Source of the DNA: Halioglobus sp.
GTDB taxonomy: Bacteria > Pseudomonadota > Gammaproteobacteria > Pseudomonadales > Halieaceae
Assembly: GCA_002699145.1 (NCBI GenBank)
Contig: PABK01000061.1
Coordinates: 134,130-198,129 of the forward strand
Length of the DNA stretch: 64,000 nt
Direction: 5' to 3'
Made by a program: the position numbers and the translations under genes. Shown in pieces: positions 2,473 through 29,583 of the stretch. Numbering within the stretch: position 1 is the stretch's first letter; each line of letters begins with the position of its first letter. The notes under the pieces were generated by a model that was not told the DNA's origin, searched no databases, and worked only from the letters and a program-made list of their open reading frames with translations.

Positions 2473-2524
2473 GTGGGTCAATATTAGATGCAAATCCTGG
2501 GTCAGTTTTAAGTGCAAATCAACA
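2473..2524 (-). repeat. IS21 right terminal repeats (two copies)
   Basis: Two inverted copies of the GATTTGCA/TTGACCCA unit form the right end. The last bases, GTGCAAATCAACA, complement the left tip with two mismatches. Confidence 0.8.
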
Positions 2525-3210
2525 TGACCTTGAGGGTCAGGAACAATCTGGCCCACGATAGTTCGATACACTGGCACGGGATTATTCTGCCAACGGGTAT
2601 GGATGGCGTGCCGGGGCTCAGCTTTGCGGGGATCAAACCGGGTGAGTCTTTTGAATACCATTTCGATGTTAATCAGAGTGGCACCTACTGGTACCACAGC
2701 CACTCGGGTTTCCAGGAGCAGACCGGGATGTACGGTGTCATTGTGATTGCGCCGCGTGAACCGGACCCTGTCAGTTATGACCGGGATTACGTCATACTGC
2801 TGTCGGACTGGAGCGATGAGGAGCCGTCAAACGTCTACGCCAAGCTCAAGAAGATGGGAGATTACTACAATTTCCGAGAGCGCACGGCGGGTGATCTTTG
2901 GGACGAGATAAAGGCTAAGGGTGTTGCGCAGACATGGAAGGACAGGTCTATGTGGAATGAGATGCGCATGAGTGATCGCGATATCTCGGATGTCACAGCG
3001 TATACCTATACATATTTGATCAATGGGGTAACGCCCGAGGACGGTTGGGTAGGGCTATTCAAACGCAATGAAAAAGTTCGCCTGCGTTTTATCAACAGCG
3101 CCGCGATGAGGATTTTCGATGTCCGGATTCCCGGTCTGAGAATGACTGTGGTTGCATCAGACGGACAGAACATTGATCCGGTAACCGTGGATGAATTTCG
3201 TACGGCGAGA
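2525..3210 (+). pseudogene. Truncated copper oxidase CopA fragment
   Basis: The frame from 2512 to 3258 encodes the middle of a CopA-type multicopper oxidase: the first copper motif HWHG (IHWHGIILPTGMDGVPG), then HSHSGFQ and the SDWSDEEP block that also occurs in the intact CopA encoded at 5578-7440. The signal peptide and about 90 N-terminal residues are missing at the IS21 border. Similarity stops at about 3203 after VDEFR, so the second cupredoxin half, the Met-rich region and the C-terminal copper ligands are lost. The start at 2512 is created by the IS. This is a second, more divergent copA copy, disabled by IS insertion and a 3' deletion. Confidence 0.85.
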
Positions 3211-3237
3211 GCATTCAATCTGGCAGTGGACACTGTC

Positions 3238-3570
3238 TCATTGGCTGTGCCAGCCTGAAGCGATAATGGCCATCCCCAGTAACGCGACACTCGCTCCCAG
3301 CCAATCTGTTCTGGTCAAGTCGACCCCGTCTACCACCCTGAGCCAAACTAAGGCCGTGGCGACGTAAACACCGCCGTAGGCTGCGTAAACGCGACCTGCG
3401 GCGCTTGGGTGCAAGGAGAGCAGCCAGGCAAACAATGCCAAGCTGATAGCTGCGGGCAACAATACCCAGGCCGGTGCAGATTTTTTGAGCCACAGGTAAG
3501 GTAAATAACAACCAATAATCTCGGCGATGGCGGTGACGACAAACAAAACAAGCGTAGTTGGAATTTGCAT
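3238..3570 (-). CDS. YnfA/UPF0060 family membrane protein
   Basis: The 110-residue protein has four hydrophobic segments and matches the small YnfA family, distant relatives of SMR drug exporters. Family features visible are the first helix followed by [14 protein letters not shown], then the [24 protein letters not shown] block and a last helix ending in GW. I chose the ATG at 3570 (MQIPTT) because the upstream 17 codons are not family-like. Its 3' end overlaps the dead frame of the truncated copA, so a deletion endpoint lies close to its stop codon. The substrate of this family is unknown. Confidence 0.85.
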
Positions 3571-4735: not shown

Positions 4736-5581
4736 CTAGAACCAGAACCGCAATCCGGCAACAAACTGGGTGTCCGAGGTTTTGTTTCCAGCCTCGCGTC
4801 GGTAATCAGCTGTATCACCATAGGCACCAGCCCACTCCACCCCGATGTAGGGGGCAAATTGACGGGTGATTTCATAACGCAGGCGCAACCCTAAGGAAAT
4901 ATCCGAAAGACCTGACCCCAAACCATTGTCAGGATCATCCTTGCCGTACAGGTTCAACTCAGCGCGAGGCTGCAGGATCAGCCGTTGCGTCAGCAGCAGT
5001 TCGTACTCGGCTTCGGCCTTAATTGCAGTCCGACCGCCGTCAGCAACATAGGCGGCGACATCCAGCTCGAACCAATAGGGTGCGAGACCCTGTACTCCCA
5101 ATGCCAACCATTGCCTGTCCTTGCCCTCGTCGTATTGGTCGATCCGAACACCCAGTTGGGTATCGAAATAGGGGTTGAGTGCATTGCCCCATAGCAGGTC
5201 GGTGGAGCTTTCTTCCAGTGAGCCGTCTGCGATATCTCCCTCCGCCTTGATGACGAAACGGTTGTAGGTGGTGCCATACCAGCCCTGTAGATCGTAGACC
5301 GTGCTCTCGCTGCTTTCCTGGTATTCAAGGCGATCACCAAGCACCGCCCAGAAAATGTGCTCGTCCATTAGCTTCAACTGTCTGGGTCCCGGTTGGGCGT
5401 AGGGCCCTTCAGTCAGCGTATAGCCATCGGAATAGGCATTGGGATCACGGGCATCAGCGGGTGCGCTGCCACCTTGCATCTGCATATCCCCATGATCCAT
5501 TTGTGCCAGTACGGTATTCGTCTGCAGTGCGCCGACAGCAAAAACTAATGTTGTGAGGTATTTCATCGCATTACGTCTCAT
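4736..5581 (-). CDS. copB: Copper resistance outer membrane protein CopB
   Basis: The 281-residue protein is a CopB-type outer membrane beta-barrel. A signal peptide ends near TVLA, followed by a short Met/His copper-binding segment (QMDHGDMQMQGG), then alternating barrel strands ending in the terminal aromatic residue (LRFWF). The ATG at 5581 overlaps the copA stop codon as ATGA, so the two are translationally coupled. An internal ATG at 5566 is an alternative. CopB acts with CopA in periplasmic copper sequestration. The longer open frame to 5758 lies inside copA and is not used. Confidence 0.9.
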   Translation of the reverse strand: MRRNAMKYLTTLVFAVGALQTNTVLAQMDHGDMQMQGGSAPADARDPNAYSDGYTLTEGPYAQPGPRQLKLMDEHIFWAVLGDRLEYQESSESTVYDLQGWYGTTYNRFVIKAEGDIADGSLEESSTDLLWGNALNPYFDTQLGVRIDQYDEGKDRQWLALGVQGLAPYWFELDVAAYVADGGRTAIKAEAEYELLLTQRLILQPRAELNLYGKDDPDNGLGSGLSDISLGLRLRYEITRQFAPYIGVEWAGAYGDTADYRREAGNKTSDTQFVAGLRFWF

Positions 5582-7440
5582 GACACGACCACCTCGCGGA
5601 ACATACCTGCATCCATATGAAACAACAGGTGACAATGCCAGGCCCAGCGCCCCACATCGTGGGGTGTGGTCAGGAAACTGATGCGCTGCGCCGGCTGTAC
5701 GGGAATGGTATGGCGGCGTACCCGCAGTTCGCCCTGATCGGTTTCCAGTTCGCTCCACATGCCGTGCAAGTGCATGGGGTGAGTCATCATGGTGTCGTTC
5801 TGCAGAATGATTCTGACCCGCTCGTTGTGGCGCAGGGACACCGGGGTGCTTTTGCCAAACTCCAGTCCATCGAAGGACCAGGAGTAGCGTTCCATATTAC
5901 CGGTCAGGTGCAGCTCGAGTTCGGTCGCGGGTGCACGATGGTCATCCAGCACGCCATCGATGGATTTCAGATCCGCCAGCGTCAGCACGCGGTGGCCCGG
6001 TGGGCGTAGCCCACGCTGGCTTAAGTTGCGCAAGCCAATGCCCGGGTCGTCGAGATTGGTGCGTGGCATATCCACCCGCATGTCCACCGACGGGCCGTAT
6101 TCGCTCCGAGCGTGGCGTACCGAGGAGGAGGGTTTGGCAAGCGAGTTCGTGGCACCTTGTTGCATGCCGTGCATACTGTGGTCCATGGCCATGCCGCCAT
6201 GCGTTTGGGGCTGATCCATCTTGCTGTGGTCCATGGCACCCATATTCATAGAACCCTGATTCATTCCACCATGATTCATGCCGCCTTCGTTCATAGCTCC
6301 CATCATGTCTTCCATGGTGAGCCATTCCGCGGGATCAAGCGCCGGTACCGGTGCTGACACGTCTGGTCGCACTGCCAGCGTGCCGCGAGCGTAACCGGTG
6401 CGTTCCATACTCTGTGCGAAGATGGTATACGCATCGTCACTGGGTTCGACCAGCACATCGTAGGTTTCACCCGGTCCGAATCGAAACTCGTCTATCGATA
6501 CCGGTTCCACATCCTGTCCGTCAGCCTGAACGACGGTGAGCTTCAAGCCGGGAATACGGACATCATAAAAACTGTTGCCGGTGGCGTTGATAAAGCGCAG
6601 TCGTACACGCTCACCTGGATTAAAAATACCTGTCCAATTACCTGCCGGCGTGGTGCCGTTCATCAAGTAGGTGAGAGTCGCCGCCGATAGATCCGCCAGA
6701 TCGGTTGGATTCATACGCATTTGATTCCACATCTGGCGTTTTTCCACCGCGGCTTTTAAACCGATAGTGGAGACGTCACGGGTGAAGTCGAACAAGGTGG
6801 GCTGATTGAAGTTGTATACATCGCCCTGCACCTTCAGCTTGCTGAACGCGTGCATCGGTTCTTCGTCGGTCCAGTCAGAGAGCTGTACCACGTAGTCCCG
6901 CTCGGCACGTTGCCTGTCACCTGCGCGTGGCTCGATAATCAGGGCACCGTACATTCCGGTCATTTCCTGAAAGCCGGAGTGGCTGTGATACCAGTAGGTA
7001 CCGCTCTGCCGCAGGGTAAACTGATAAACAAAGGTTTCGCCCGGTGCGATCCCCTTGAAGCTGATACCTGGCACCCCGTCCATCTGATAGGGCAGAAGGA
7101 TGCCGTGCCAGTGAATAGAAGTGGCTACCGGCAAGCGGTTAGTGACCCGAATGGTTACCGCATCGCCCTCCCGCAACCGAAGCGTAGGAGCCGGAATGGA
7201 GCCATTGATGGTGGTAGCCATACGGGTGACACCGGTGAAATTGACCGGGGTTTCGGCGATCACCAGATCGATTTCACGGCCGCTGAGGACCGGTGCCGAC
7301 CCCAGTGCTGTCGCGGCGTTTGCGTCGGCACGTAAGAAGGCCGGCGCGGTCGCCAGCACACCACCGGCCGCAAGGCCCTGCACAAAGCGGCGGCGACTGA
7401 ACTGCACGGGCTGTCTGGGTGGGGGAAGCCATCGGGTCAT
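5578..7440 (-). CDS. copA: Copper resistance multicopper oxidase CopA
   Basis: The 620-residue periplasmic oxidase starts with a Tat signal peptide (SRRRFVQG, twin arginines at 16-18). Copper ligand motifs are HWHG near residue 110, HSHSGFQ near 152, HPMHLHGMW near 555 and HCHLLFHMDAGM near 600. A Met-rich insert near residues 375-420, with repeats such as MNHGGMNQGSMNMG, is typical of CopA and binds further Cu(I). It is expected to oxidise Cu(I) to Cu(II) and sequester copper. It is the first gene of a minus-strand operon with copB, the Met/His protein and cytochrome c, transcribed from the region holding the box at 7531-7546. Confidence 0.95.
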   Translation of the reverse strand: MTRWLPPPRQPVQFSRRRFVQGLAAGGVLATAPAFLRADANAATALGSAPVLSGREIDLVIAETPVNFTGVTRMATTINGSIPAPTLRLREGDAVTIRVTNRLPVATSIHWHGILLPYQMDGVPGISFKGIAPGETFVYQFTLRQSGTYWYHSHSGFQEMTGMYGALIIEPRAGDRQRAERDYVVQLSDWTDEEPMHAFSKLKVQGDVYNFNQPTLFDFTRDVSTIGLKAAVEKRQMWNQMRMNPTDLADLSAATLTYLMNGTTPAGNWTGIFNPGERVRLRFINATGNSFYDVRIPGLKLTVVQADGQDVEPVSIDEFRFGPGETYDVLVEPSDDAYTIFAQSMERTGYARGTLAVRPDVSAPVPALDPAEWLTMEDMMGAMNEGGMNHGGMNQGSMNMGAMDHSKMDQPQTHGGMAMDHSMHGMQQGATNSLAKPSSSVRHARSEYGPSVDMRVDMPRTNLDDPGIGLRNLSQRGLRPPGHRVLTLADLKSIDGVLDDHRAPATELELHLTGNMERYSWSFDGLEFGKSTPVSLRHNERVRIILQNDTMMTHPMHLHGMWSELETDQGELRVRRHTIPVQPAQRISFLTTPHDVGRWAWHCHLLFHMDAGMFREVVVS

Positions 7441-7508: not shown

Positions 7509-7556
7509 CTGTCACCCGCATGACGCATAGATTACGGTACTGTAATCTATGCGTCA
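7509..7556. promoter_or_regulatory. Divergent cop promoter with CopR-like box
   Basis: The 178-bp gap between copA and the permease gene holds a perfect 15-bp inverted repeat, TGACGCATAGATTAC (7521-7535) and its complement (7542-7556), separated by six bases. Its core ATTACGGTACTGTAAT (7531-7546) matches the box found at four other places in the island. On the copA side it is followed by GTCATGCGGGTGACAG (7509-7524, minus strand), identical over 16 bases to the sequence beside the copK box. I infer an operator for the local CopR acting on both divergent operons. Confidence 0.75.
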
Positions 7557-7618: not shown

Positions 7619-8950
7619 ATGGAGAACAAGCAAGGGAGAGCATCGCAATATGCTGAAGACAGCCTGACTCTAGTCGGTGCCGTTGCCCTTGGTACTGGCG
7701 TAATGATTGGCGCTGGAATATTTGCACTTACGGGGCAGATGGCCGAAATGACGGGTGCGTTGTTTCCATTTGCATTCATCTCTGCCGCCGTTGTTGTTTC
7801 ATTCAGCGCCTATTCCTATGTGAAGATGTCCAATGCGTATCCTTCCGCTGGTGGGATCGCAATGTTCCTTAAGAAGGCCTATGGCACAACCTTGCCAACT
7901 GCATTTTTTTCATTGTTGATGTATTTTTCGATGGTGATTGCGCAGAGTTTTCTGGCGCGAACTTTTGGGTCTTATACGCTGCAATTGTTTGATATCAGCG
8001 ATACCCGCATCCTGGTCCCCGGCCTCGGCATTGCGTTACTTATTTTTGCCTTTGTTGTAAATCTGTCTGCCAATAAGCTCATTGAAGGGCTGGCATCACT
8101 GCTGGGGATGGTCAAGATTGGTGGAATCATCGTCTTTGGTCTAGTGGGCATTGCCGTTGCCGACAAGACAGAAGTCATGTCATCCAGTAACCATCTTGAG
8201 GGTGGCTTGCTAGGGTTTCTAGGTGCAACTGCTCTGGGTATTCTTGCTTTCAAAGGCTTCACAACGATTACAAATAGTGGATCAGAGCTGAAGAACCCAC
8301 ACCGCAATGTGGGTCGCTCCATAGTCATTTCCATTTTGCTATGCATCTTCATTTATGGCCTTGTCGGCTTCGCTGTTTCCAGCAATTTGTCGCTTGAGGA
8401 GATAATCAAGACTCGCGATTATTCGCTGGCCGCCGCCGCTCGACCTGCAATGGGCGATTATGGGCTCTGGTTCACCGTGATTTTGGCGATGGTCGCCACC
8501 GCTGGCGGCATTATTGCCAGCGTCTTTGCCGTTTCTCGCATGCTGGCCATGTTGACGGAAATGAATCTGGTACCACACAGCCACTTTGGCATGCCCGGAA
8601 GCATTCAAAAACATACGCTAGTGTATACGATAGTTTTGGGTCTGTTACTTACAGCATTTTTTGACCTATCCCGAATTGCTGCTCTGGGGGTCATCTTTTA
8701 TTTGGTGATGGATATTGCCATTCACTGGGGTGTGCTACGACATCTCCACAGCGAATTGGGCGCAAGGCGTGATATTGTCGTGATCGCAACAGTGCTGGAC
8801 CTTGCCATACTGACAGGCTTTGTGCTGGTCAAGATTGTCAGCGATCCGCTCGTTATCGGCGTGGCATGTATCGCGATGGCGGCTATTCTGATTGCCGAAG
8901 TGATATTCCTTCACCGTAACCCCATTACCTCTGAACAGCACGACCACTAA
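7619..8950 (+). CDS. APC-superfamily amino acid permease
   Basis: The 443-residue protein has about twelve hydrophobic segments. It carries the APC signature in the first helix (GVMIGAGIFALTGQMAEMTG), the conserved PSAGG in the loop after helix 2 (AYPSAGGIAMFLKKAYG) and a helix-6-like block (LGFLGATALGILAFKGFTTITNSGSELKNPHRN). It would be a proton-coupled amino acid or amine importer in the inner membrane. It is the first gene after the CopR-like box, on the plus strand, with 56 bases to the next gene. Why a permease heads a copper operon is unclear; uptake of a copper-binding amino acid is one possibility, unproven. Confidence 0.85.
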   Translation: MENKQGRASQYAEDSLTLVGAVALGTGVMIGAGIFALTGQMAEMTGALFPFAFISAAVVVSFSAYSYVKMSNAYPSAGGIAMFLKKAYGTTLPTAFFSLLMYFSMVIAQSFLARTFGSYTLQLFDISDTRILVPGLGIALLIFAFVVNLSANKLIEGLASLLGMVKIGGIIVFGLVGIAVADKTEVMSSSNHLEGGLLGFLGATALGILAFKGFTTITNSGSELKNPHRNVGRSIVISILLCIFIYGLVGFAVSSNLSLEEIIKTRDYSLAAAARPAMGDYGLWFTVILAMVATAGGIIASVFAVSRMLAMLTEMNLVPHSHFGMPGSIQKHTLVYTIVLGLLLTAFFDLSRIAALGVIFYLVMDIAIHWGVLRHLHSELGARRDIVVIATVLDLAILTGFVLVKIVSDPLVIGVACIAMAAILIAEVIFLHRNPITSEQHDH

Positions 8951-9006
8951 CAACCGTTTCTATCGAGTCGGGTGCTCGAGTGACGGCATGATCATGGAGA
9001 GGAAGG

Positions 9007-10137
9007 ATGCTCCAGTACATTGTACGTCAGTTACGGATTGATATGAGTCGCACCCTCATGAGAGGCGGCGCTATAGCCGCCGTAGTGGCTGTTATATTGG
9101 TCCTGGAGGGCTTCTATGCCGGACAGCTTGTCCAGTTACGCAATACGTCATTAAACAGGGGAGGAGACTTGATTGTTCTTCAGGCCGGCGTATCTAACAT
9201 GATCGCCGTCCGTTCAGTGCTTCCGCAGTTTTCTCGTCAGGATGTGGAGGTTGTAAACGGTGTCGCCTCAGCCCACCCGCTAACCACTATCGCATTGATC
9301 TATGAACAGGCTGGGATACGAACCCCTATCTCATTGTTTGTGTATGATACTGCGGGCGGTCCAGGAGGGTTGTTTGCAGGCAGGCCGATCGAGAAAGATC
9401 GCGAAATAGTCGTCGATCGTTCACTGGCAGAAAAATACGATCTCAGCCCCGGTGATACCTTCGTCCTCTCTGACTTTGAGTTTCATATAGCGGGGATCTC
9501 GGAGGGAGACGCCGCATACTTCACCTCTTTCGGTTTTGTACTTTTTGACGATCTTCTGGACTTCTATTTTGAATCTGATCTAGCCGACGATATCAGTACT
9601 TTCCCGTTATTGAGCTTTCTGCTGGTAAACCTTGTTGCGGATGAGAATCTTGTTACTGTCGCACAGCGCATTGAGGAGTCAGTGCCCAGTGCTGACGTCT
9701 ATCTGCCTGAGATGCTTGCGGACAAAGATGAAGTGCTGGGGCGAGTCACGCTTGGGCCAATCTTTGAAACGATGATAGGTGTCGCTTATATAGTAGGGAT
9801 ACTGGTCACCGGAATTATTATGTTTGCGGCCATCAACGGGCGTCGGCATGACCTGGGTGTATTGAAGGCCCTTGGGTTCAGCAATGGCTATCTGCTGCGC
9901 ATCGTAATACTGGAAGCCCTAATACTGGCATCTCTGGCTATACCAGTGGGTATTGTGCTTGCAATGCTTTTGGGCGTGTTCATCGAGAGCATGGCACCGC
10001 TTTATCTCGTTTTGCCCACTGAAACGATACCAATGATACGCACAGCTCTGGCATGTTGGGGGTTCGCAATCGCGGGGTCACTGCTGCCGGTTCACATGAT
10101 ATACCGGTTGGACCCCGGTATGGTTTTCAGGAACTGA
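9007..10137 (+). CDS. ABC transporter permease, FtsX/LolC type (1)
   Basis: The 376-residue protein has one N-terminal helix (residues 20-42), a periplasmic domain of about 200 residues and three C-terminal helices in the FtsX layout. The cytoplasmic loop INGRRHDLGVLKALGFSNGYL is the typical coupling motif of FtsX/MacB/LolC permeases. An excellent ribosome site (GAGAGGAAGG) precedes the ATG. It is followed after two bases by a second permease of the same type, so the two probably form a heterodimer like LolC/LolE. Substrate unknown; lipoproteins or lipids are suggested by the LolA-like gene downstream. Confidence 0.85.
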   Translation: MLQYIVRQLRIDMSRTLMRGGAIAAVVAVILVLEGFYAGQLVQLRNTSLNRGGDLIVLQAGVSNMIAVRSVLPQFSRQDVEVVNGVASAHPLTTIALIYEQAGIRTPISLFVYDTAGGPGGLFAGRPIEKDREIVVDRSLAEKYDLSPGDTFVLSDFEFHIAGISEGDAAYFTSFGFVLFDDLLDFYFESDLADDISTFPLLSFLLVNLVADENLVTVAQRIEESVPSADVYLPEMLADKDEVLGRVTLGPIFETMIGVAYIVGILVTGIIMFAAINGRRHDLGVLKALGFSNGYLLRIVILEALILASLAIPVGIVLAMLLGVFIESMAPLYLVLPTETIPMIRTALACWGFAIAGSLLPVHMIYRLDPGMVFRN

Positions 10138-10139
10138 TT

Positions 10140-11255
10140 ATGACGCGCTGGATGATCAAAAGTCTGTTGCTGGAGCCCTTAATGTTGATGATTGCGATCA
10201 CATCTGGTGCCAGTGCATTCCTGCTAATCATAATGTTTGAGGGAATATTTGCGGGTGAGTCAGAGAAAATTGTAGCCTATGTACGCAATGTGGAAGCTGA
10301 CGTCTGGGTAATGCAGCGTGGGGTCTCGAACATGCATATGGCCACCTCCTACGTGGCAGACTGGAAGGTTCGGCAAGTTCGAGAACTCCCTGGGGTCGCA
10401 GCCGTGGATCCTATTCTCTACCTGAATACAGTCGTGGAAGCTGGTGAACATCGGTGGTTTTCTTATGTGGTGGGGCTTGATGTGCCTTCTGCATATGCCG
10501 GCCCATGGGCGATGTCGATAGGTCGGGATCAGCCCGCTCTCGGCGAGGTGATTGTGCCGGAGGTATTTGCCCGGATGGCCCAACTTAAAATAGGTAGTCA
10601 GCTGCGAATCACAGACCATGAATTCATTATCGTTGGCCTATCTCGAGAAACGTTTTCGATGGCCAATTCTGTCATTTTCATCAACAAGATTGATATGGAA
10701 GACATTATGTCATCCTTCGATATCTCCAGCTTCATGCTCGTAAAGACAGCTAATGGCGTCACACCGGGCGACCTCGCCGCTACTATTGAGCGCGAAGTGG
10801 ATAAGGTACATGCCCTCACGGCAGAGCAGTTCCTGAAAAACGACAAAAAGATGGCTATGCAAATGGGCACAGATACGATCGCACTTATGACACTTATCGG
10901 CGGTGCTCTGGCTATCCTGTTGGTAGCTTTTACGATTTATTCACAGGTTGCCCGCCAGCGTTGTGAACTGGCGGTTGCCAAGGCACTGGGGGTGACTAAC
11001 GGAGCCCTGTATGCCAGCGTGGTATTTCAGGCAATAGTGATCACTCTTACCAGCGTGATAGTAGCAACTCTCGTAGCCGCTCTATTGATGCCTGTGTTAT
11101 CAAAGCTCATTCCGGCGGTCACCATGCGTTTGACAATGGCATCTGTAACCAAAATCGCTGCGGCAGGCATATTTGTGGCGATCGCTGCTTCATTAATGCC
11201 GGCACGCCAGATTGCACGCCTTGACCCTGTATCGGCATTCCAGGGCGGAGGATAA
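10140..11255 (+). CDS. ABC transporter permease, FtsX/LolE type (2)
   Basis: The protein is 371 residues from the ATG at 10140; the frame is open further upstream, but that part overlaps permease 1. It has an N-terminal helix, a periplasmic domain (VWVMQRGVSNMHMATSYV resembles the LIVLQAGVSNMIAV block of permease 1) and three C-terminal helices. The coupling loop SQVARQRCELAVAKALGVTNG is present. The two permeases are clearly paralogous. The gene lies between permease 1 (two bases) and the ATPase (seven bases), a tight operon. I expect an inner-membrane heterodimer driven by the next gene product. Confidence 0.85.
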   Translation: MTRWMIKSLLLEPLMLMIAITSGASAFLLIIMFEGIFAGESEKIVAYVRNVEADVWVMQRGVSNMHMATSYVADWKVRQVRELPGVAAVDPILYLNTVVEAGEHRWFSYVVGLDVPSAYAGPWAMSIGRDQPALGEVIVPEVFARMAQLKIGSQLRITDHEFIIVGLSRETFSMANSVIFINKIDMEDIMSSFDISSFMLVKTANGVTPGDLAATIEREVDKVHALTAEQFLKNDKKMAMQMGTDTIALMTLIGGALAILLVAFTIYSQVARQRCELAVAKALGVTNGALYASVVFQAIVITLTSVIVATLVAALLMPVLSKLIPAVTMRLTMASVTKIAAAGIFVAIAASLMPARQIARLDPVSAFQGGG

Positions 11256-11262
11256 GTTTATT

Positions 11263-12150
11263 ATGAAAGAGAATATTGTTCTGCAAGCAGACCACCTCGT
11301 AAAAACCTTTGGCACGGGTCACACAGAAGTTCGTGCTGTTGACGATGTGTCGCTAACCTTAAAAAAAGGCGAACTCGTGTTGGTAATGGGTCCATCCGGT
11401 TCGGGCAAGACGACAATGCTCTCAATGCTGGGTGGTTTACTCAGGCCCACCTCGGGGCGAGTGCTTATTGGTGGTACCGAGATTACTGCTTTAGGAGAAT
11501 CGCAATTACCGAGGATTCGTGCCCGTAGCGTCGGCTTTATCTTTCAGGCATTCAATTTGCTGGACGCGCTCACCGTGGAGGAGAATATCCTGTTTCCCTC
11601 TCGGCTAATTCGTGGCAATTTTCGCCAGGCATCAGAGAGGGCTGCACAATTGATTGAACGCCTTGGCCTTGGCCACCGACGTAAAGCATTGCCGCGAACC
11701 TTATCTGGTGGAGAGAAACAACGGGTGGCGATTGCGAGAGCGTTGATCAATGCACCCCCGCTTATTCTTGCAGACGAACCGACGGGTAATCTTGACTCTG
11801 TCAGCGGCCAGGAAGTGATGATGATTCTGCACGATATTGCCCGTGATGAGGGCAGATCGATTGTTTTGGTAACTCACGATCCGCGAGTCGAGGATGTAGC
11901 AGACCGTATTTTGTGGCTGGAAGATGGAGCGCTGCGAGATCGCAAAACTGAGTTGCATTCCTGGGTGCGTGATCCCGTGTGTGGTATGAGGGTAGATGAA
12001 TGGACCGCAGAGATTACAACAACTTATGAAGGTCTCCGCTATGTTTTTTGCGCGCAGCGATGTCTGGAACGCTTTGAGAAGGAGCCTCTGCGCTATTTGC
12101 ATGACGCCTCAGGAACCATGGCTTCTAACGGAAATACCGGGGAGCAATAA
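11263..12150 (+). CDS. ABC ATPase (LolD/MacB type) fused to a YHS metal domain
   Basis: The 295-residue protein has a complete nucleotide-binding domain: Walker A GPSGSGKTT, Q-loop FIFQAFNLLDALT, signature LSGGEKQRVAIARAL, Walker B LILADEPTGNLD and the switch His in VLVTHDPRVEDVA. The last 50-60 residues form a YHS/TRASH-type domain: DPVCGMRVDEW, then YEGLRYVFCAQRCLERFEKEP, with the C-x-G-M and C-x3-C cysteines in place. YHS domains are linked to copper and other soft metals in CopZ-like and P-type ATPase proteins. The fusion suggests that metal occupancy controls ATP hydrolysis. AGGCGGAGG precedes the ATG at 11263. Confidence 0.88.
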   Translation: MKENIVLQADHLVKTFGTGHTEVRAVDDVSLTLKKGELVLVMGPSGSGKTTMLSMLGGLLRPTSGRVLIGGTEITALGESQLPRIRARSVGFIFQAFNLLDALTVEENILFPSRLIRGNFRQASERAAQLIERLGLGHRRKALPRTLSGGEKQRVAIARALINAPPLILADEPTGNLDSVSGQEVMMILHDIARDEGRSIVLVTHDPRVEDVADRILWLEDGALRDRKTELHSWVRDPVCGMRVDEWTAEITTTYEGLRYVFCAQRCLERFEKEPLRYLHDASGTMASNGNTGEQ

Positions 12151-12152
12151 CT

Positions 12153-12959
12153 ATGAAGCACTTTGTCAAAATCATCGGCTTACTATTGGCTTGTACACAG
12201 GTAACCGGAGTTGCTCAGAATAGTACGACACTCACACCAGAGGCCAGGGGACTGGCGATTGCGCGGGAAGCGTCACATCGCAACGAGGGGTATGGTGATA
12301 CTACCGCAGACCTCACCATGGATTTGATTTCAGTCGATGGCAGAACTCGTCAGCGGGTGCTTAGCTGGCAGATTCTCGAATCAGATAATCCGGAAGATGG
12401 TGACAAGGCCCTGACGATTTTCCATGAACCTCGAGATATTGCCGGCACAGGCTTCCTAAGTCATACACATATCTCACGGGAAGATGACCAGTGGCTTTAC
12501 CTGCCGTCTCTAAAACGTGTGAAACGCATTGCTTCGGCCAACAAATCCAGTGCCTTTGTGGGGAGTGAGTTCGCCTACGAGGATCTCCTTTCTGACGAGG
12601 TGGAGAAATTTTCCTATCGCTGGATCAGGGATGAACCATGCGGTAATTGGCAGTGCTTTGTAGTTGAGAGGGTTCCAGTTTACGATAACTCAGGATACAG
12701 CCGGGAAATTGTGTGGATAGAGCAGTCTGATTACAGGATTTATAAAACTGACTTCTACGACCTGAAAGATAAATTGGAGAAAACCCTGTATTTCGAGGAT
12801 TATCATCAATACCTCGACAGGTTCTGGCGTGCTCACGTACTGCGCATGGAGAATGTCCAGACGGGTAAAAAAACAGTACTGACTTTCAAGCCCTACCTCT
12901 TCCAGACCGGCCTCACCGAACAGGCTTTTAGCCCTGATGCGCTGAAGCGTATTCGTTAA
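12153..12959 (+). CDS. LolA-like outer membrane lipoprotein-sorting protein
   Basis: The 268-residue protein has a signal peptide (residues 1-21, ending VTGVAQ) and matches the LolA-like family often named outer membrane lipoprotein-sorting protein. Visible blocks are the AREASHRNEGYGDTTADLTM start, FHEPRDIAGTGFLSHTHI, WLYLPSLKRVKRI and SFVGSEFAYEDL-like FVGSEFAYEDLL. Such proteins have a half-barrel fold that carries lipid or lipoprotein across the periplasm. The gene starts two bases after the ATPase gene, so it probably takes cargo from the FtsX transporter. The C-terminal LQTGL-like tail is intact. Confidence 0.8.
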   Translation: MKHFVKIIGLLLACTQVTGVAQNSTTLTPEARGLAIAREASHRNEGYGDTTADLTMDLISVDGRTRQRVLSWQILESDNPEDGDKALTIFHEPRDIAGTGFLSHTHISREDDQWLYLPSLKRVKRIASANKSSAFVGSEFAYEDLLSDEVEKFSYRWIRDEPCGNWQCFVVERVPVYDNSGYSREIVWIEQSDYRIYKTDFYDLKDKLEKTLYFEDYHQYLDRFWRAHVLRMENVQTGKKTVLTFKPYLFQTGLTEQAFSPDALKRIR

Positions 12960-12960
12960 C

Positions 12961-14175
12961 ATGCTGTATAGATCAGCCAGGTGTGCTTATTGCGGGGCGG
13001 TTCTGATTGTTATCGCGAACCAGTGCCTGGCACAGCAGCAAGATTGGGCCGGTTATATTGCTTTTGAGCCACGTATTTTCTTTGAAGAACCGAAGTATGA
13101 CCAGCATCCGCACAATGGACTATCGCCTTCCGCCGTAGTCTCGCCGGAATTTCGTTATGAGTGGCATGAAGGCAGTGACCGAATAACGATAATTCCGTTT
13201 TACCGCTATGACGCCGACGATGAAAATCGTACTCACTGGGACTTGCGGGAGGCCAACTGGCAGCATTTTAGAGGGCCCTGGACGTGGCTACTGGGCGTCG
13301 GCAAGGTGTTCTGGGGTGTTACTGAATCCCGACACCTTGTTGATATCATCAATCAAACTGACCTTGTCGAGGATATTGACGAGGAGCAGAAGCTCGGGCA
13401 GCCCATGATCAATCTTGAGCACTGGAGCGAAGGCGGAACTCTCAGCCTCTTTCTACTTCCCGGTTTTCGGGAGCGCACTTTCCCGGCAAATAATGCGCGC
13501 CTGCGGGGGCCATTGCCAATTTCCAATCACGATGCAGTGTACGATTCCGGGGCAGGAGATCAGCATCTGGATATTGCACTGCGCTGGACCAAATCCGTTA
13601 CCAACTGGGATATCGGGTTGTCCGGATTCTACGGCAATGGTAGAGAGCCCCGTCTGGTGCCGACCCTGGTTGCGTCGGGAAGCGTCTTTCTCGTGCCACA
13701 TTATGATGTCATCAGCCAGCTTGGCGTCGATATCCAGTACACGCAGGAAGCCTGGTTGTGGAAGTTAGAAGCGATTGGCCGTTCAGGGCAGGGCGATGAC
13801 TTTGGTGCCTTTGCTGGGGGGGTGGAGTACACATTCTATGGCATCCGGGGAACCAATGTCGACATCGGCCTTCTCGCCGAATATTTGTACGATGCGCGTG
13901 ACGACGCTGCACCGGCAACTTCATTGGATGATGATGTATTTGTTGGAGCCAGATTTACTCTGAATGACGCGGATGACACTAATATTCTGGTGGGCGCAAT
14001 TGTGGATCCTGCCGACGGGGAAACAATTGCTTTCGTCGAGGCCCAGCGACGTATGGGTGAGCGATGGACTCTGGAGTTTGAATTGCGTTTGCTGACGAAT
14101 ATTTCAGAAGATGGGCGGTTATACGGATTTGAAAAAGATAGCTACATGACGTTGAGAACGTCATGGTATTTTTAA
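12961..14175 (+). CDS. Outer membrane beta-barrel protein, unnamed
   Basis: The 404-residue protein has a signal peptide (about residues 1-24, ending CLAQQ) and alternating hydrophobic and aromatic strands finishing in a terminal Phe (RTSWYF), the usual Omp ending. I do not recognise the family with certainty. Proteins of this size often accompany LolA-like proteins in MMPL-type export loci, from general knowledge. It begins one base after the LolA-like gene. As the last envelope component it could accept cargo or act as a pore at the outer membrane; this is inferred from position alone. Confidence 0.7.
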   Translation: MLYRSARCAYCGAVLIVIANQCLAQQQDWAGYIAFEPRIFFEEPKYDQHPHNGLSPSAVVSPEFRYEWHEGSDRITIIPFYRYDADDENRTHWDLREANWQHFRGPWTWLLGVGKVFWGVTESRHLVDIINQTDLVEDIDEEQKLGQPMINLEHWSEGGTLSLFLLPGFRERTFPANNARLRGPLPISNHDAVYDSGAGDQHLDIALRWTKSVTNWDIGLSGFYGNGREPRLVPTLVASGSVFLVPHYDVISQLGVDIQYTQEAWLWKLEAIGRSGQGDDFGAFAGGVEYTFYGIRGTNVDIGLLAEYLYDARDDAAPATSLDDDVFVGARFTLNDADDTNILVGAIVDPADGETIAFVEAQRRMGERWTLEFELRLLTNISEDGRLYGFEKDSYMTLRTSWYF

Positions 14176-14197
14176 TCCGTGATAGTTGTTGGTTTCA

Positions 14198-15361
14198 ATG
14201 CTGACGATTGACACACTGATCTGGTTGTTATCCGGGGCTGTTCTTGTAGCCTCCAATGCGCTTTTTGATCGATATAGGCTGCCGCTCGCGGCGGTGGTGA
14301 TTCTGTTGGGAATGCTGCTGGGTCCTCTGTGGCTTGAACTAATTTCCTTCGGTAGCGAAGAACGCATCATCACAGAAATCGTAGTGGTGTTCATACTCTT
14401 CGCAGCGGGATATGAAGTTAATTGGAAACGATTTATAGCGGCTGTGCAACCTGCCCTGATTGTTGGAATAGCTGGTATTCTGGCTAGTGCTTCGCTGGGT
14501 TATATCGCAGGATTCACTATCAATGGGCGAATAGACGAAGCCTTGTATATTGCAGTTGCGCTCGCTGCTACCAGCATAGGGATAAGTGTCCCGTTACTGA
14601 GTCGGGAGGGTATTTTACACACCAAGGTTGGCCAGATTTTTCTTGCTGCAGCTGTGGTCGATGACATACTTGCATTGTATCTATTGTCGTCAATCCATTT
14701 GAGTTTAACTGGCACTAACGGATATCAGCAGATACTTACATCACTACTGATCGGAATTTTGGCTTTGCTTGCAATTATCATGCTTCTTTCGGCAGTTTAC
14801 GTCTTGCTCAATAGAAGCGGTATGCTCAAATCTACTATTTCTAGGCGATCTGCAATCATCTCGCTGACCCTGTTGACTGCCTGGTTAACACATCTGGGGG
14901 GATTGTCTGCTGCTGTAGGTGGGTTTGTCGCAGGTGCTGTACTTGCAGCGATGGAGCCAGAAAAGCGAGGTCGAGATAGCGCCTTTTTTGATCGACTCGC
15001 AGCCTGTGTCACCCCCCTTTTCTTTGTCGGCATCGGCATGCAAATAACTGAACTTGACGTGAATGACCTGGGTCTGCTCTACGTGGTACTGCTGGTATTG
15101 ATAGCGGCTATACTGGGGAAATTGTTCGTACCATGGCTGATTTCTTCGCAATTGAACGTTCGTGAGAGGTGGATTCTTGGCGCTGCTTTGCTGCCGCGTG
15201 GTGAAGTGGGCTTGGTCGTTGCAAGCATAGGATTGATGCAAAAACATCTGTCACACCATGGCATGGTAAGCCTGGTTATCATGACACTAGTTACTGCTTT
15301 GGCGTCTTCCATTATTATCCCCCGATTGGCAAGGAGCTATACTGCTCGCGGAAACGACTAG
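14198..15361 (+). CDS. Cation:proton antiporter, CPA2 (KefB-like)
   Basis: The 387-residue protein has about twelve hydrophobic segments of the Na+/H+ exchanger fold. Conserved parts are LPLAAVVILLGMLLGP, the FILFAAGYEVNW block, the acidic pair VVDDILALY in helix 5 and PRGEVGLVVASIGL. No TrkA-N nucleotide-binding domain follows, so it is a membrane-only form. The ATG at 14198 is preferred over a TTG at 14186; neither has a strong ribosome site. It ends the plus-strand operon beginning at 7619. It may balance ion or proton load during metal stress; no direct sign of the ion is visible. Confidence 0.83.
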   Translation: MLTIDTLIWLLSGAVLVASNALFDRYRLPLAAVVILLGMLLGPLWLELISFGSEERIITEIVVVFILFAAGYEVNWKRFIAAVQPALIVGIAGILASASLGYIAGFTINGRIDEALYIAVALAATSIGISVPLLSREGILHTKVGQIFLAAAVVDDILALYLLSSIHLSLTGTNGYQQILTSLLIGILALLAIIMLLSAVYVLLNRSGMLKSTISRRSAIISLTLLTAWLTHLGGLSAAVGGFVAGAVLAAMEPEKRGRDSAFFDRLAACVTPLFFVGIGMQITELDVNDLGLLYVVLLVLIAAILGKLFVPWLISSQLNVRERWILGAALLPRGEVGLVVASIGLMQKHLSHHGMVSLVIMTLVTALASSIIIPRLARSYTARGND

Positions 15362-15959: not shown

Positions 15960-16256
15960 ATGAATTTCAGAAAGATGGGTTGCACATTGGCGGTCTGCGG
16001 AGCGGTGGGATTTATGACGCCTGCACTTGCAGAAGAACCGCTGGCGGAGAAAATACAGCTAAAAGACGGGTCAACGCTATATCTACATCCAGACGGTACG
16101 GGCCGAATGATAGACCAGCATGGCAAGCCCATGAGCATGGCCGATGGAACGAAAATGGAGACGAAGGATGGCCGGGTCATCATGATGGAAAACAAGCGCG
16201 TTTGGGTGCGGTACGGCCCGCCTGGAAAAGGAAGGGTGACGCAAAAAATTGATTAA
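15960..16256 (+). CDS. copK: CopK-family periplasmic copper-binding protein
   Basis: The 98-residue precursor has a signal peptide (cleavage after ALA near residue 24). The mature part matches CopK: LKDGSTLYLHPDGTGRM, GKPMSMADGTKMETKDG and a basic-aromatic tail with WVRYGPP. CopK of Cupriavidus metallidurans is a small beta-sandwich that binds Cu(I) through Met residues and then gains affinity for Cu(II). Met residues in the MSM and METKDG regions and later MM are present. A GAGGAG site lies just before the ATG. It is convergent with copS. The weaker N-terminal similarity is normal for signal peptides. Confidence 0.85.
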   Translation: MNFRKMGCTLAVCGAVGFMTPALAEEPLAEKIQLKDGSTLYLHPDGTGRMIDQHGKPMSMADGTKMETKDGRVIMMENKRVWVRYGPPGKGRVTQKID

Positions 16257-16357: not shown

Positions 16358-17797
16358 TCATCCCGCCAAACTTCGGTCGGAAATTGGAAGTGTTATCTCA
16401 AACGTAGTTTTTCCATTTTCTGATCGGGCGAAAATGCTACCGCCATGTAAGTCCACAATCGAATTCACTATTGCCAGACCGAGTCCGGCACCACTACCAT
16501 TGCCGGAGCGTTGCCGAGATTGGTCTGCGCGATAAAATCTTTCAAACAAATATGGTAGATGTTCAGCTGGGATGTCGTCCCCGACATTTTCTACCGCAAT
16601 ATGAATATTTTGGTTATCACTGCTAAGTCGTACGACGATAGATGAACCGGGAGTCGAATGGTGGATAGCATTGGTGAGGAGATTGGTAAGCGCGCGGCGC
16701 AACATTTCTTTATCTCCGATTATTGTTGGGCGGCTCCCTTCCAGTGTCAGATTTATATTGCAATGCTCTGCCCAGGCTCCGAGATAATCGAATAGTTCTG
16801 TCAGCTCTATAGCAGGATCCAGAGTTTCAAAACGAGGTTTGAGTATGCCATTATCGGCCTGAGCGAGCCATAGCATGTCGTTTATCATCCTGGTCATGCG
16901 TTCATACTCTTCCAGGTTGGAATACAGAATCTCCTGATATTCCTCTGAGTCTCTTGCCTTGCTCAGCGACACTTGCGTCTGTGTAGAGAGATTGGTAATT
17001 GGCGTGCGCAGTTCATGCGCTATATCTGCTGAAAAGTTGGATAGGCGTTGAAACACATCATCCATACGTGCCAGCATATCGTTAAAAGATGTGACTAGTT
17101 CCAGCAAGTCAGCGGGTGCGTTTTCAGGATCCAGACGAAGATTTAGTTTTTCACTGGTGATGTTGCCTATCTCTTTGCTAATTTTGTGTAGAGGCCTGTG
17201 CGCCACCTGCACGGCAAACCAGGCAGATAACAAGATTAATAGACTTGAACAGCCTAGAACGCCCCATAATTGTTTACGAAACTGATCCATAAACTGCAAA
17301 TGAAAATCCATAGACGCGGCTACGATGATGGTCATTTTGTCAATTGTTGTATTGATCTTATCTTCTGTCTCAACAACAGTTCCGCGATAGGTTTTTCCAT
17401 TTTCTGACCAAAGATAAAGGTTATCCCTGCTAATAGTTTTGACCGGTGGAATACTAGTGAGTAGATTAGACAATTGAGGCCCCGGGGTGGAAAAAATCAT
17501 ATTACTCTCGCCGTCAAAAACGGCGTAGTACATTCCGTGGTGGCCAGAAACAGCCTGCTCCAGACTTTTCTGAAAGTCATCACCGTGGAGATTCCCTAAG
17601 CTATTTTGCAGTGCGAGCTCAACGGAAGCAGACACGACGCGAAGTTCATCGGCGTCCCCCTCGGCGAAATGGCCGTCGATGGAGTCTTGTATAACTATAC
17701 CCAGCATTAGTACACAAGAAAGAAACGTGGCACCAACAATTGCAGTCACCCTGCCAGCAAGTGGCATCCGACGCCAGTTATATGTTCTAAATGTCAT
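16358..17797 (-). CDS. copS: Heavy-metal sensor histidine kinase (CopS/CusS)
   Basis: The 479-residue inner-membrane kinase has two membrane segments (about residues 16-35 and 180-200) enclosing a periplasmic sensor domain, then a HAMP region. The phospho-acceptor is in [21 protein letters not shown]1 and G2 boxes are visible ([27 protein letters not shown]). The layout matches heavy-metal sensor kinases that detect periplasmic Cu or Ag. Its start overlaps the copR end by 11 bases, so the pair is co-translated. A degraded second copy of its 3' part lies beyond copK. Confidence 0.92.
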
Positions 17798-18470
17798 CGA
17801 GAATATCTAGCTGATAGCCCATGCCACGGACGGTGTGGATTAGCTTCGGCGAATAGGGCTCGTCAATTTTCACTCGCAAGCGCCGAATAGCCACATCGAT
17901 TACATTGGTGTCACTGTCGAAGTTCATGTCCCATACCTGTGATGCGATAAGCGAGCGTGGCAAAACTTCTCCCTGTCGCCTCACCATTAGTTCCAGCAAT
18001 GAAAACTCTCTATTAGTAAGATTGATGCGATTGCCACCGCGTGTGACACGTCGACGTGGGAGGTCAAGGACCAGATCGGCTATTTCCATGTGTTCCACTA
18101 ACGCGGAGTTAAGACCGCGCCGCAGGAGGGTTCGAACTCTCGCCAGTAATTCCGCGAACGCAAAAGGCTTGACCAGATAATCGTCGGCGCCCAGTTCCAG
18201 GCCCTTGACCCTATCGTCCACGCTATCTCGGGCGGTTAAGAACAAGACAGGAGTGGCTTGGTTTGCCTCCCTGAGAGATTGGATGATCTTCCAGCCATCT
18301 ACATCGGGAAGCATCACGTCTAGAACAATCAGGTCGAAGGCTTCGGTCATGGCGAGATGGTGACCATCGAGCCCATTCCGGGCCAGGTCTACCAGAAATC
18401 CGGCTTCAGTCAGTCCCTTCTGCAGGTAATCGCCTGTCTTAATTTCATCTTCAACAACAAGGAGCCGCAT
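17787..18470 (-). CDS. copR: Copper response regulator (CopR/CusR)
   Basis: The 227-residue OmpR-family regulator has a receiver domain with phospho-acceptor Asp in [12 protein letters not shown] (about residue 51), acidic pocket VEDE, Thr/Ala switch LTARD and Lys in [13 protein letters not shown]. The C-terminal winged helix contains the family blocks [25 protein letters not shown] and [18 protein letters not shown], ending in TVRGMGYQL. It should bind the ATTAC-N4-TGTAAT boxes of the island; one lies 123 bases upstream, so it may regulate itself. High similarity to CopR/CusR proteins leaves little doubt about class. Confidence 0.93.
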
Positions 18471-18592: not shown

Positions 18593-18608
18593 ATTACAGA
18601 TATGTAAT
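18593..18608. promoter_or_regulatory. CopR-like box between copR and cupredoxin gene
   Basis: ATTACAGATATGTAAT is a perfect 6-4-6 dyad of the island box. On the plus side it is followed by GTGTGTGTCAT, as at the copK box. It can serve both copRS (minus) and the cupredoxin-ATPase operon (plus). Confidence 0.75.
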
Positions 18609-19336: not shown

Positions 19337-21649
19337 ATGAATGGCGCAGTTAACCACGACCACGAAGACCAACAACATGCGGAAGAAGAGAGTGATACTC
19401 CTGCAGTGAAATCTATGGTCGGGCAGCAGGAACTAATTGTCGAGGGGGCGATCTGCGGCAGTTGTGTAACAAAAATTGAGAATGCAATTAGGCAGGTACC
19501 CGGCGTGATGGGCGCCGAAATGAACCTTGCCCAGCGTACCGTTTCAGTGACCGGGGAAGTCGATACGCAGGCGCTGGTCAACGCTATTGAGAAAGCAGGC
19601 TACAACGCGAAGGCCGTTGGAGCCCAGTCCGAAGATGATGCAATGGAGGAAAAGGAAAAGTCGGAGAGAGCTTACTACCGGCGTCTGATGCGGGAAATGA
19701 CCATCGCTCTGCTACTAGGGGTGCCCTTGATGGTCTACAGCATCATCGGCGGAGAAATGACAATTACTACTGACTCCGAGCGCCTGGTTTGGCTAATTGT
19801 CGGTCTGCTGACTCTAAGTGTCATGGTGTTTTCGGGGAAACACTTTTATGTAGGTGCCTGGCAGTCTTTCAAGAACCACTCCGCCAATATGGATACCTTG
19901 ATTGCTCTGGGGACTGGTACTGCCTGGCTGTACTCCATGGTGGTGGTTTTCGCACCTGGTGTGGTGCCGGATATGGCGCGCCATGTGTACTTTGAGGCGA
20001 CTGCCATGATTATCGGCTTGATTGATCTAGGACTCGCCCTGGAACTCAAGGCCCGAGGTCGTACATCAGAAGCGATAAAACGTCTGATCGGCCTGCAAGC
20101 CAAAACGGCGCGTGTGATCCGGGACGACAAGGAGCTGGACATTGCGATCGAGCAGGTGCTCCTGAATGATATCGTGCGTGCTAGACCTGGAGAAAAGATT
20201 CCGGTGGATGGTGAAGTCGTAGAAGGCCATACGGCGATAGATGAATCCATGCTCACCGGTGAACCCATGCCAGTGGAGAAAGGCGAGGGCGATGAGGTCG
20301 TCGCGGGGACTTTAAACAAAACGGGCTCTATCCTGTTTAGGGCGACCAGGGTCGGTAAAGATACCGCTTTGGCGCAAATCATCAACATGGTTAAGCGTGC
20401 ACAAAACTCCAAGCCACCTATCGGGCGTCTGGCCGATATCATTTCTGGCTATTTTGTCCCGGTCGTGATGATTATCGCAGTTGTGAGCGCCCTGGCATGG
20501 TTAAACTTCGGTCCTGATCCAGCGGTAGCCTTTGCAATTGTCTCCGCAACAACCGTGCTGATCATCGCTTGTCCCTGCGCGTTGGGTCTGGCAACACCCA
20601 TGTCTGTAATGGTTGGAGTTGGCAAGGCAGCTGAGGCTGGTGTGCTCATACGCAATGGTGAAGCCCTGCAGATGGCCTCCAAAATCACAGCCATGGTCCT
20701 CGATAAGACAGGCACCATTACCCAGGGTGCCCCCAAAGTTACGGACATTGTATTGGTCGCCGGGGAAAGTGAAGACGCTGTACTGCAGCTTGTCGCGAGC
20801 CTGGAGTCTGGTTCTGAACACCCACTGGCGTTAGCCATTGTGGAGTCGGCTGAGGAACGAGGATTGAAGCCTGAAAAAGTATCCAACTTCAACGCTATTG
20901 CTGGCCATGGTGTAGAAGCCGATATAGATGGTAAGCACCTGTTATTCGGCAACGAAAAACTGATGCGCGAACACAACATAGATTGTAGATCTATCGTTGA
21001 GAAGGCACAAAACCTGGCAGTTGAAGCCAAAACACCGATGTACTTTGCAGTAAATGGCCAACTGAATGCAATTATAGCAGTAGCGGATCCCATTAAGGAG
21101 GACTCCGTCGCTGCGATTAAGCGACTCCAGCATAATGGCATACGCATAATAATGCTTACCGGCGATAACCGCGGCACAGCTCAGGCAGTGGCCGAAAGGG
21201 TGGGCATCACTGAATACTTTGCGGAGGTACTGCCCCAGGACAAGACAGAGAAGGTGGTTGAACTGCAGATGCAGGATGAGATCGTAGGTATGACTGGCGA
21301 TGGGATTAATGATGCGCCCGCGCTGGCCATGGCTAATGTGGGGTTTGCGATAGGGACGGGCACAGATGTGGCAATTGAAAGTGCGGACATCACGCTGATG
21401 CGCGGGTCCCTGCATGGGTTGGCCGACGCAATAGCAGTAAGCAAAGCTACCCTGCGGAATATAAAGCAAAATCTGTTTGGAGCGTTCATCTACAACGTAG
21501 CAGGTGTGCCCTTTGCTGCCGGAGTGTTGTACCCGTTTTTCGGCCTGCTGTTGAGCCCTGTCATCGCGGGTGCAGCGATGGCCTTTTCCTCACTAACTGT
21601 AGTGACGAATGCAAATCGCCTGCGCTTGTTCAAAGCGCAGGAACACTGA
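19337..21649 (+). CDS. Copper-exporting P1B-type ATPase
   Basis: The 770-residue pump moves Cu(I) from cytoplasm to periplasm. It has a His/Glu-rich N-terminus and one HMA domain (GAICGSC, Cys40 and Cys43). Eight membrane helices carry the CPC motif ([12 protein letters not shown], near residue 414). The catalytic DKTGT is near 456, the SEHP loop near 494 and [11 protein letters not shown] near 655. YN in helix 7 and MAFSS in helix 8 are the Cu(I) signature. It is the third-position gene after the CopR-like box at 18593 in a plus-strand operon that continues into the cus genes. This is the CopA/ActP class; I leave the symbol blank to avoid confusion with the oxidase CopA. Confidence 0.95.
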
Positions 21650-22026: not shown

Positions 22027-22341
22027 ATGAAGAATCAAAAGTCGTTTTGGCGTACGCCCCAGGGCACTGCCGCTATCGCTATGATTGGCGCAGTGACTTA
22101 CTTCCTCCTGATGGAACATCGCGTACATTTTTTTCAAGCACTGCCTTTCCTGATTCTATTATTGTGTCCTTTGATGCATATGTTCATGCACGGTGGTCAC
22201 GGGCATGCAGGTCAGGACCACGGCGATGCGGGGCCAACCCATCATAATTCTGAAGAGACGGATAGCGAGGCATATCGTAGGGGGCTAGAGGAAGGGCGCA
22301 GACAGTCCTTCAAAGATGGCCGTACAGATAGGGGAGGGTAG
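22027..22341 (+). CDS. DUF2933 small membrane protein, His-rich tail
   Basis: The 104-residue protein has two hydrophobic segments with the DUF2933 core (LMEHRVHFFQALPFLILLLCPLMHMFMHGG), then a His-rich tail (HGHAGQDHGDAG, THHNSEE) and an acidic-basic end. I use the ATG at 22027 (MKNQKS); an in-frame GTG at 22015 overlaps the previous gene. DUF2933 proteins occur in copper and mercury loci; function unknown. The CPLMHMFMHGGHGH run has potential soft-metal ligands in the membrane and on the surface. Confidence 0.78.
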   Translation: MKNQKSFWRTPQGTAAIAMIGAVTYFLLMEHRVHFFQALPFLILLLCPLMHMFMHGGHGHAGQDHGDAGPTHHNSEETDSEAYRRGLEEGRRQSFKDGRTDRGG

Positions 22342-22345
22342 GGCT

Positions 22346-23014: not shown

Positions 23015-23061
23015 GCGGATCAAACTAATACAAAGGGGAATATCCCGAAGAGGTGAATACT

Positions 23062-23418: not shown

Positions 23419-23544
23419 TACATTATTAAGCGTCTATATGACGAGGCATAGAGGTGATCTGAATCCATAGTCGCCGACAGGACAAAACTTCGAAGAATCT
23501 CGGGTTTGGATGCATTTCCAGAAGCTATCCATATTCAGGAAAAC

Positions 23545-29436: not shown

Positions 29437-29583
29437 TGTTTGGCTATATATGAAAGCGATATTAGCACTAAATTGCCACGGGTCGCTTTGACACTCAGGT
29501 CGAGTAATGGGTGGCGTCGCCTGTCCAACGGCGCGATGAAAATCGCGATAACAATTCAGACGATCATCATATGAAGGCAGTCT

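Follow-up and report, generated by a model that had tools for sequence, protein, structure and literature searches.

A copper-linked operon of Lol-like composition in Halioglobus: an FtsX-type transporter cassette with a YHS-fused ATPase, joined to a LolA-like carrier and a barrel

Copper resistance is usually told as a matter of pumping or oxidizing the metal, and the locus described here raises the question of what a Lol-like set of envelope genes is doing in a copper island. The locus is a seven-gene operon (7619-15361) in a 64,000-nucleotide stretch of Halioglobus sp. DNA, hereafter the window. Our answer, to which we give about an even chance of being right, is that the operon is a copper-responsive, Lol-like machine for the extraction and hand-over of a lipid-like substrate. 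Its genes, and the box at which it begins, are as follows.

7619-8950, plus strand: APC-type amino acid permease (Pfam AA_permease_2, 107.1 bits)
9007-10137, plus strand: FtsX1 permease (Pfam MacB_PCD and FtsX, both over the cut-off)
10140-11255, plus strand: FtsX2 permease (Pfam MacB_PCD and FtsX over the cut-off; fold of HrtB, LolE and LolC)
11263-12150, plus strand: ATP-binding cassette (ABC) ATPase with a fused C-terminal YHS domain (ABC_tran, 126.8 bits; YHS, 50.6 bits against a cut-off of 30.3)
12153-12959, plus strand: LolA-like periplasmic carrier (Pfam LolA_like PF17131, 203.7 bits against a cut-off of 30)
12961-14175, plus strand: outer-membrane-type beta-barrel (no Pfam model; the usual neighbor of PF17131 in MMPL operons too)
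14186-15361, plus strand: CPA2-type cation/proton antiporter, last of the run (Pfam Na_H_Exchanger, 176 bits)
7521-7556, no strand: 36-base near-perfect palindrome with a CopR-type box, ATTACN5TGTAAT (box at 7531-7546), between the divergent copA multicopper oxidase gene and the operon

All seven reading frames are open at these coordinates and are tightly packed, with gaps of 56, 2, 7, 2, 1 and 10 bases when FtsX2 and the ATPase are taken to start at their likely ATG codons (10140 and 11263). An initial annotation had described seven packed plus-strand genes of this composition, with a YHS domain on the ATPase, and both statements agree with the coordinates, the gaps and the Pfam families. 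The sixth gene product had no match in the Pfam scan of the seven proteins. Its AlphaFold model, made with seven sequences (mean pLDDT 58.6, the second half better), has an N-terminal helix followed by long strands, and the 50 Foldseek matches listed are porins and other outer-membrane proteins, with E ≤ 0.001 in 17 of the 571 matches. Because the TM-scores (query) of the listed matches were only 0.28-0.42, this evidence reaches the class and not the precise fold, and the model supports an outer-membrane barrel at the level of class.

The box (ATTACGGTACTGTAAT, inside the palindrome) lies in the 178-base gap between the start of the copA multicopper oxidase gene and gene 1, so that the operon does begin at a box shared with copA, as had been claimed. 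There are four sites without mismatch in the 5.2 Mb genome, each inside the window (reversed control, 0), and with one mismatch allowed the window contains 14 matches, both strands counted, against 0.57 expected. Among 138 loci the box was present in five entries (L and G numbers denote our loci and genomes): a sister species (L038 and L039, one place), L045, L048 and L121 (the window). In the sister species it is located in the stretch between the multicopper oxidase and the APC permease, where two extra open reading frames (ORFs) stand, and another box lies beside copR. Judged from its position and form, the box is probably a CopR site, through which CopR would turn the operon on. Promoter and terminator scans gave matches no better than chance.

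How much of the operon is conserved was judged from its relatives. When 84,980 species genomes were scanned with a pattern built on an FtsX1 alignment, 137 relatives were found, the best 80 of which represent 78 distinct loci: 34 close ones (L039-L072) and 44 with distant FtsX proteins (L073-L116), used as controls. Together with L028, L030 and L031, from a draw of 369 genomes of the class, the close loci make up a family set of 37, or 36 when the sister species is excluded. In that draw the ATPase had a match at E ≤ 1e-62 in 11 of 369 genomes, namely the window's own, eight of the YHS type and two others (G057 and G206) in which the match ends ahead of the YHS region. L040-L072 are metagenome assemblies, mostly of Gammaproteobacteria (L042, L045 and L047 are alphaproteobacterial and L064 is labelled Deltaproteobacteria), and FtsX1 was found in 2 of 18 genomes of the window's genus, the window's own counted. 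A YHS domain is present on 29 of 36 ATPases by a loose motif check; of the other seven, six are cut at contig ends and one (L072) is a variant form. The conserved unit is a three-gene cassette, FtsX1-FtsX2-ABC(YHS), which is a distinct transporter family. The seven-gene set of the initial annotation stands to that extent: the cassette recurs, and the carrier, the APC permease and the antiporter are not regular members. The APC permease lies beside the cassette in the sister species and in L030, L042 and L067 (57-63%), and a CPA2 antiporter is near it only in L050 and L051 (34% and 43%). The full order FtsX1-FtsX2-ABC(YHS)-carrier-barrel, sought in other genomes, recurs in the sister species, L040, L041 and L046.

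The cassette is metal-linked. With the sister species excluded, 14 of 36 loci have a metal gene nearby (CPx-ATPase, multicopper oxidase, CopB, DUF411/CopG, CusA or a close CopR). Among loci with at least 8 kb of total flank this was true of 12 of 22 family loci against 1 of 36 control loci (Fisher p 7.5e-6), which is not a matched test because the control taxonomy differs and because the reference proteins for labelling neighbors were picked after some family loci had been seen (DUF411 and several others came from them), a choice that favors the family over the controls. Each of ten family-bearing genomes has 2-6 CPx-ATPase matches, and in 7 of the 8 whose cassette contig exceeds 35 kb one lies at most 16 kb from the cassette (the exception is G079; in G220 and G306, outside this count, the contigs are shorter than 9 kb). 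Occurrence of the gene order in many genomes with no link to metal loci had been named beforehand as the outcome that would tell against the first interpretation; it was looked for, and the counts above do not show it. Thus the box, the copper genes around the operon (listed below) and the metal neighbors of its relatives all agree with the copper link first suggested.

The carrier and the barrel have a second home. PF17131 occurs at 32 places in the ten genomes, and at 8 of 14 places examined (none from G220) it is part of an MMPL-carrier-barrel set, one per genome (L123-L125, L127, L129, L131, L135 and L136). Of the remaining places, L130 (G273) has carrier and barrel with no MMPL match, L128, L132 and L133 have carrier and MMPL with no barrel match, and L126 and L134 have neither match. 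Sets with MMPL also occur on plasmids of Photobacterium and Halioglobus and, more loosely arranged, of Pseudoalteromonas and Sulfitobacter. The homologs of the window's proteins in MMPL operons, often in the same genome as a cassette, match at 44-52% for the carrier (Sulfitobacter 36%) and 39-48% for the barrel (Sulfitobacter 28%). Both types of operon have a homologous carrier followed by a homologous barrel, and here the MMPL gene, absent from the seven by Pfam, is replaced by FtsX1-FtsX2-ABC(YHS). In the usual arrangement an MMPL/RND pump works with the carrier/barrel pair; here the ABC transporter substitutes for it. If the pair does handle lipid-like cargo, such pairs can swap motors, from proton-driven MMPL to ATP-driven FtsX.

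In all, nine cassette loci have the carrier: the window, the sister species, L040, L041, L042, L046, L056, L058 and L062. The order is the opposite one, carrier-barrel-FtsX1-FtsX2-ABC, in L056 and L058; in L062 the carrier directly precedes FtsX1 and no barrel match is present, and in L042 the sequence stops within the carrier. In the transporter tree these loci form separate groups, requiring three changes (four with all rows labelled), and a single clade was rejected (log-likelihood 388 lower, p-AU 1.4e-6) in a test of 9 carrier-linked and 16 judgeable rows, with 12 of 37 rows unlabelled and the grouping known ahead of the test. The carrier tree (8 ABC rows against 11 rows with an MMPL match; L014, L126, L128, L130 and L132-L134 were left out) separates ABC-linked from MMPL-linked groups. 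In 6 of the 8 genomes whose cassette has no local carrier an MMPL set is present elsewhere, and the ABC transporter of such relatives may borrow its carrier from there. A CGx3C cysteine pair was considered as a mark of the ABC-linked carrier and discarded: it is present in the window, L039, L040, L041 and L046, but also in the MMPL-linked L131 and L013.

Two further PF17131 loci deserve mention. In G050 (L126:5759-9955) a PF17131 carrier gene precedes those of an FtsX permease pair and a short ABC ATPase, so a carrier with an FtsX-ABC transporter exists in another form too. This locus resembles ours in having the carrier directly with an FtsX pair and ATPase; it differs in that the sequences are distant, the 12 kb region has no match to the metal reference proteins, and the ATPase, at 236 amino acids, is too short for a YHS fusion. 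On a Sulfitobacter plasmid (L014:1-10774) an MMPL-PF17131 pair comes immediately after the gene for a type I polyketide synthase, a position that hints at a polyketide lipid as the cargo of the MMPL form.

Candidate metal residues occur in two parts of the machine. FtsX2 has invariant residues at Met58, Met65, His66, Met67 and Met242 (37 of 37 sequences) and at Met250 (36 of 36), whereas conservation above 80% is limited in FtsX1 to His90 (32 of 38) and the start Met. The FtsX2 model (pLDDT 83.6) places the MHM motif in the loop after transmembrane helix 1 (TM1) and the first strand, and Met242 and Met250 at the helices leading into TM2, so that these elements should be neighbors in the fold. 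In the YHS domain (numbering without the start Met; rows reaching each position) H231, C239 and M241 are found in 31 of 31 sequences and C262 and C266 in 30 of 30. The cytosolic YHS domain and the FtsX2 Met/His set are thus candidate sites at which copper might influence the machine directly. Metal-binding-type residues in these two parts hint at how the envelope could keep working under copper poisoning, and they make metal control of such an ABC transporter directly testable.

The same residues could be read as those of a direct copper handler, in which the MHM site and YHS domain would allow the ABC transporter to sense or transport periplasmic Cu(I) while the carrier and barrel, though co-regulated, have a separate job. 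The invariant FtsX2 set and YHS ligands, the metal genes in the neighborhood and the lack of a local carrier in most relatives would all fit. We consider this quite unlikely, as FtsX-type ABC proteins are not known as ion carriers, and mere passengers would explain poorly why the carrier and barrel have been joined to the cassette in two transporter branches and in differing order.

The scheme that we favor runs as follows. The ATPase-driven FtsX1-FtsX2 pair, judging from its fold, would extract a membrane-embedded lipid-like substrate from the inner membrane, and the exchange of MMPL pump for ABC beside the same carrier/barrel pair suggests that the substrate would then pass to the PF17131 carrier and on to the barrel. 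A lipid or lipoprotein is a plausible substrate, because copper has been reported to impair lipoprotein acylation and trafficking (PMC6538781). The operon would most likely serve to sustain lipid or lipoprotein traffic, or to clear damaged lipid, when the normal route is poisoned by copper. If this is true, a Lol-like machine in a copper island would directly repair or bypass the lipoprotein damage caused by copper. It is also conceivable, though we regard this fuller version as doubtful, that the operon is a back-up Lol-type pathway gated by copper: the ABC transporter would be activated when Cu(I) occupies the Met/His set of FtsX2 and the YHS domain, and lipids, or copper-damaged or misacylated lipoproteins, would be extracted and then delivered or ejected at the outer membrane through a carrier and barrel captured from MMPL operons. 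Envelope building would in that case survive copper.

How closely does this resemble known systems? With LolCDE-LolA the operon shares two FtsX-fold permeases (FtsX2 has the LolC/E fold), a LolD-related ATPase and a carrier of the LolA superfamily; it differs in its PF17131 carrier, in the barrel as last step and in the YHS domain. A LolC/LolE-type pair is encoded elsewhere in the genome, with one member over the cut-off (the best LolC/E match is on contig C7), and a profile alignment (hhalign) to the genome's LolC was too weak for placing the LolC Hook, the element that binds LolA. DevBCA and MacAB-TolC have the permease and ATPase superfamily in common with the operon, but adaptor and TolC are absent from the seven genes by Pfam. 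The scores lie below the curated cut-offs, at 230.7 of 295.8 bits for DevA, 32.0 (FtsX1) and 20.0 (FtsX2) of 290.35 for DevC and 203.5 of 966 for the ATPase against MacB; in MacB the ATPase is fused to the permease, and here the two are separate genes. There is precedent for a composite in the Aat system, which borrows a permease and an ATPase of LolCDE type to reach the outer membrane; it differs in having a glycine acyltransferase and a channel like that of type I secretion, and no copper link appears in the accessible part of that report (PMC7943197). Since LolCDE, DevBCA and MacAB membership all fail at the tested cut-offs, we propose that the operon works like Lol and do not claim it as Lol. 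The Lol-like route of the initial annotation is in this sense retained, given the FtsX2 fold and a carrier and barrel apparently taken over from MMPL operons in two branches, and dropped as far as LolCDE itself is concerned.

Several observations weigh against the reading that we favor: (i) neither FtsX1 nor FtsX2 matched the LolC/E model (TIGR02212) at E 0.01, and the ATPase scored 212.9 bits against the LolD model (TIGR02211), under its cut-off of 307.75; (ii) the best structural match of FtsX2 is a heme exporter, not LolE; (iii) of 20 loci with enough flank to judge (3 kb or more upstream, 2 kb or more downstream) only 4 have the carrier, one being the sister species, or 3 of 19 without it; (iv) the carrier tree does not reject a single origin of ABC-linked carriers (p-AU 0.337), so one carrier type may have joined the ABC transporter twice; (v) 10 of the 22 well-flanked relatives are without any listed metal gene, and 2 of the 12 positives (L044 and L060) rest solely on a distant multicopper oxidase (30-34%); (vi) among gammaproteobacterial cassettes an Lgt neighbor occurs only in L028; and (vii) a related Rhodococcus permease, described below, lacks the MHM motif.

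Point (ii) leads to an HrtBA-like remover, in which the FtsX pair would use the Met/His set to bind a hydrophobic tetrapyrrole or metal chelate in the inner membrane, such as heme, damaged porphyrin or a greasy complex of copper, and the carrier, if present, would send it outward. HrtB is the closest solved fold to FtsX2, and the permease fold is the same. However, HrtBA has a single permease type, compared with two unlike permeases here, and no YHS domain, carrier or barrel; LolA-superfamily carriers are known for lipids; and the neighbors of the cassette are metal-resistance genes, heme genes not having been noticed among them, although not all neighbors were scanned. On balance we find this unlikely.

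Point (v) would also suit an exporter or lipid mover of ordinary MacB/DevC-like type, carried along in metal islands and with no copper role. Islands collect unrelated genes, the permeases have weak DevC and ADOP matches, and the ATPase has its DevA match, albeit under the cut-off. Such a rider is very unlikely in our view: it would not account for the YHS domain on nearly every ATPase long enough to show one, nor for the box at the promoter and the metal-gene enrichment, and the seven genes include no adaptor protein. A literature search, weak in that most subscription journals lay outside it, found no work joining YHS, ABC and copper (and FtsX), none on the CopR-type box, and none joining aryl polyene, LolA and MMPL.

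Other neighbors of the cassette were surveyed with 212 ORFs (L045, L028, L030 and L031 were left out), 177 of which went through two Pfam scans, with the best 25 families of each considered; ten L056 ORFs were scanned separately, and most unscanned ORFs were short or overlapping. Recurrent among the 37 loci were a FAD protein (11), small YHS proteins (8), PEMT/ICMT-like methyltransferases (6), thioredoxin-like DUF255 proteins (6) and patatin-like phospholipases (3). A fatty acid cis/trans isomerase was set aside as a regular partner, being only 3 of 82 scanned neighbor proteins and merely suggestive. It lies near the cassette at L042:7219-9660, where it may be split over two ORFs, and at L044:10305-12812, and on other contigs it is over the cut-off in 4 of 10 genomes. 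Lgt was likewise rejected, having been seen only at L028 and on a Rhodococcus plasmid. That plasmid, pRWAY03 (L139:2974-31659), carries a metal island in which a YHS-fused ABC ATPase and an FtsX permease are accompanied by Lnt, two genes of Lgt type, an MMPL gene and genes for cytochrome c biogenesis; the island may hold a reserve set for lipoprotein maturation. A small-protein family is found near the cassette in six loci (L056:4819-5295, L058:280-759, L052, L057, L061 and L062); the L056 and L058 members are about 160 amino acids long and have no Pfam match.

The copper genes that surround the operon in the window are these.

5578-7440, minus strand: CopA-type multicopper oxidase, divergent across the box (curated model match)
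15960-16256, plus strand: CopK-like protein (Pfam)
16358-18470, minus strand: CopS and CopR, copper-type sensor kinase and response regulator (curated model matches)
18593-18608, no strand: second CopR-type box, between copRS and the gene preceding the CopA-like ATPase
19337-21649, plus strand: CPx-type (CopA-like) P-type ATPase, named from its sequence and a metal marker in our survey

Further CopR-type boxes are located at 29846 and 31324, with a one-mismatch form at 31083. Upstream, an IS21-like transposase pair (164-2459) directly precedes a second CopA-type multicopper oxidase fragment (2512-3258; both named by eye from translations). Downstream, the metal island extends over 22316-37480, beginning with a PEMT/ICMT-like methyltransferase (22316-23014) and including, by eye from translations, a CusCBA-like set, a porin-like gene, a MerR-like regulator and a protein with an FTR1-like REGLE motif.

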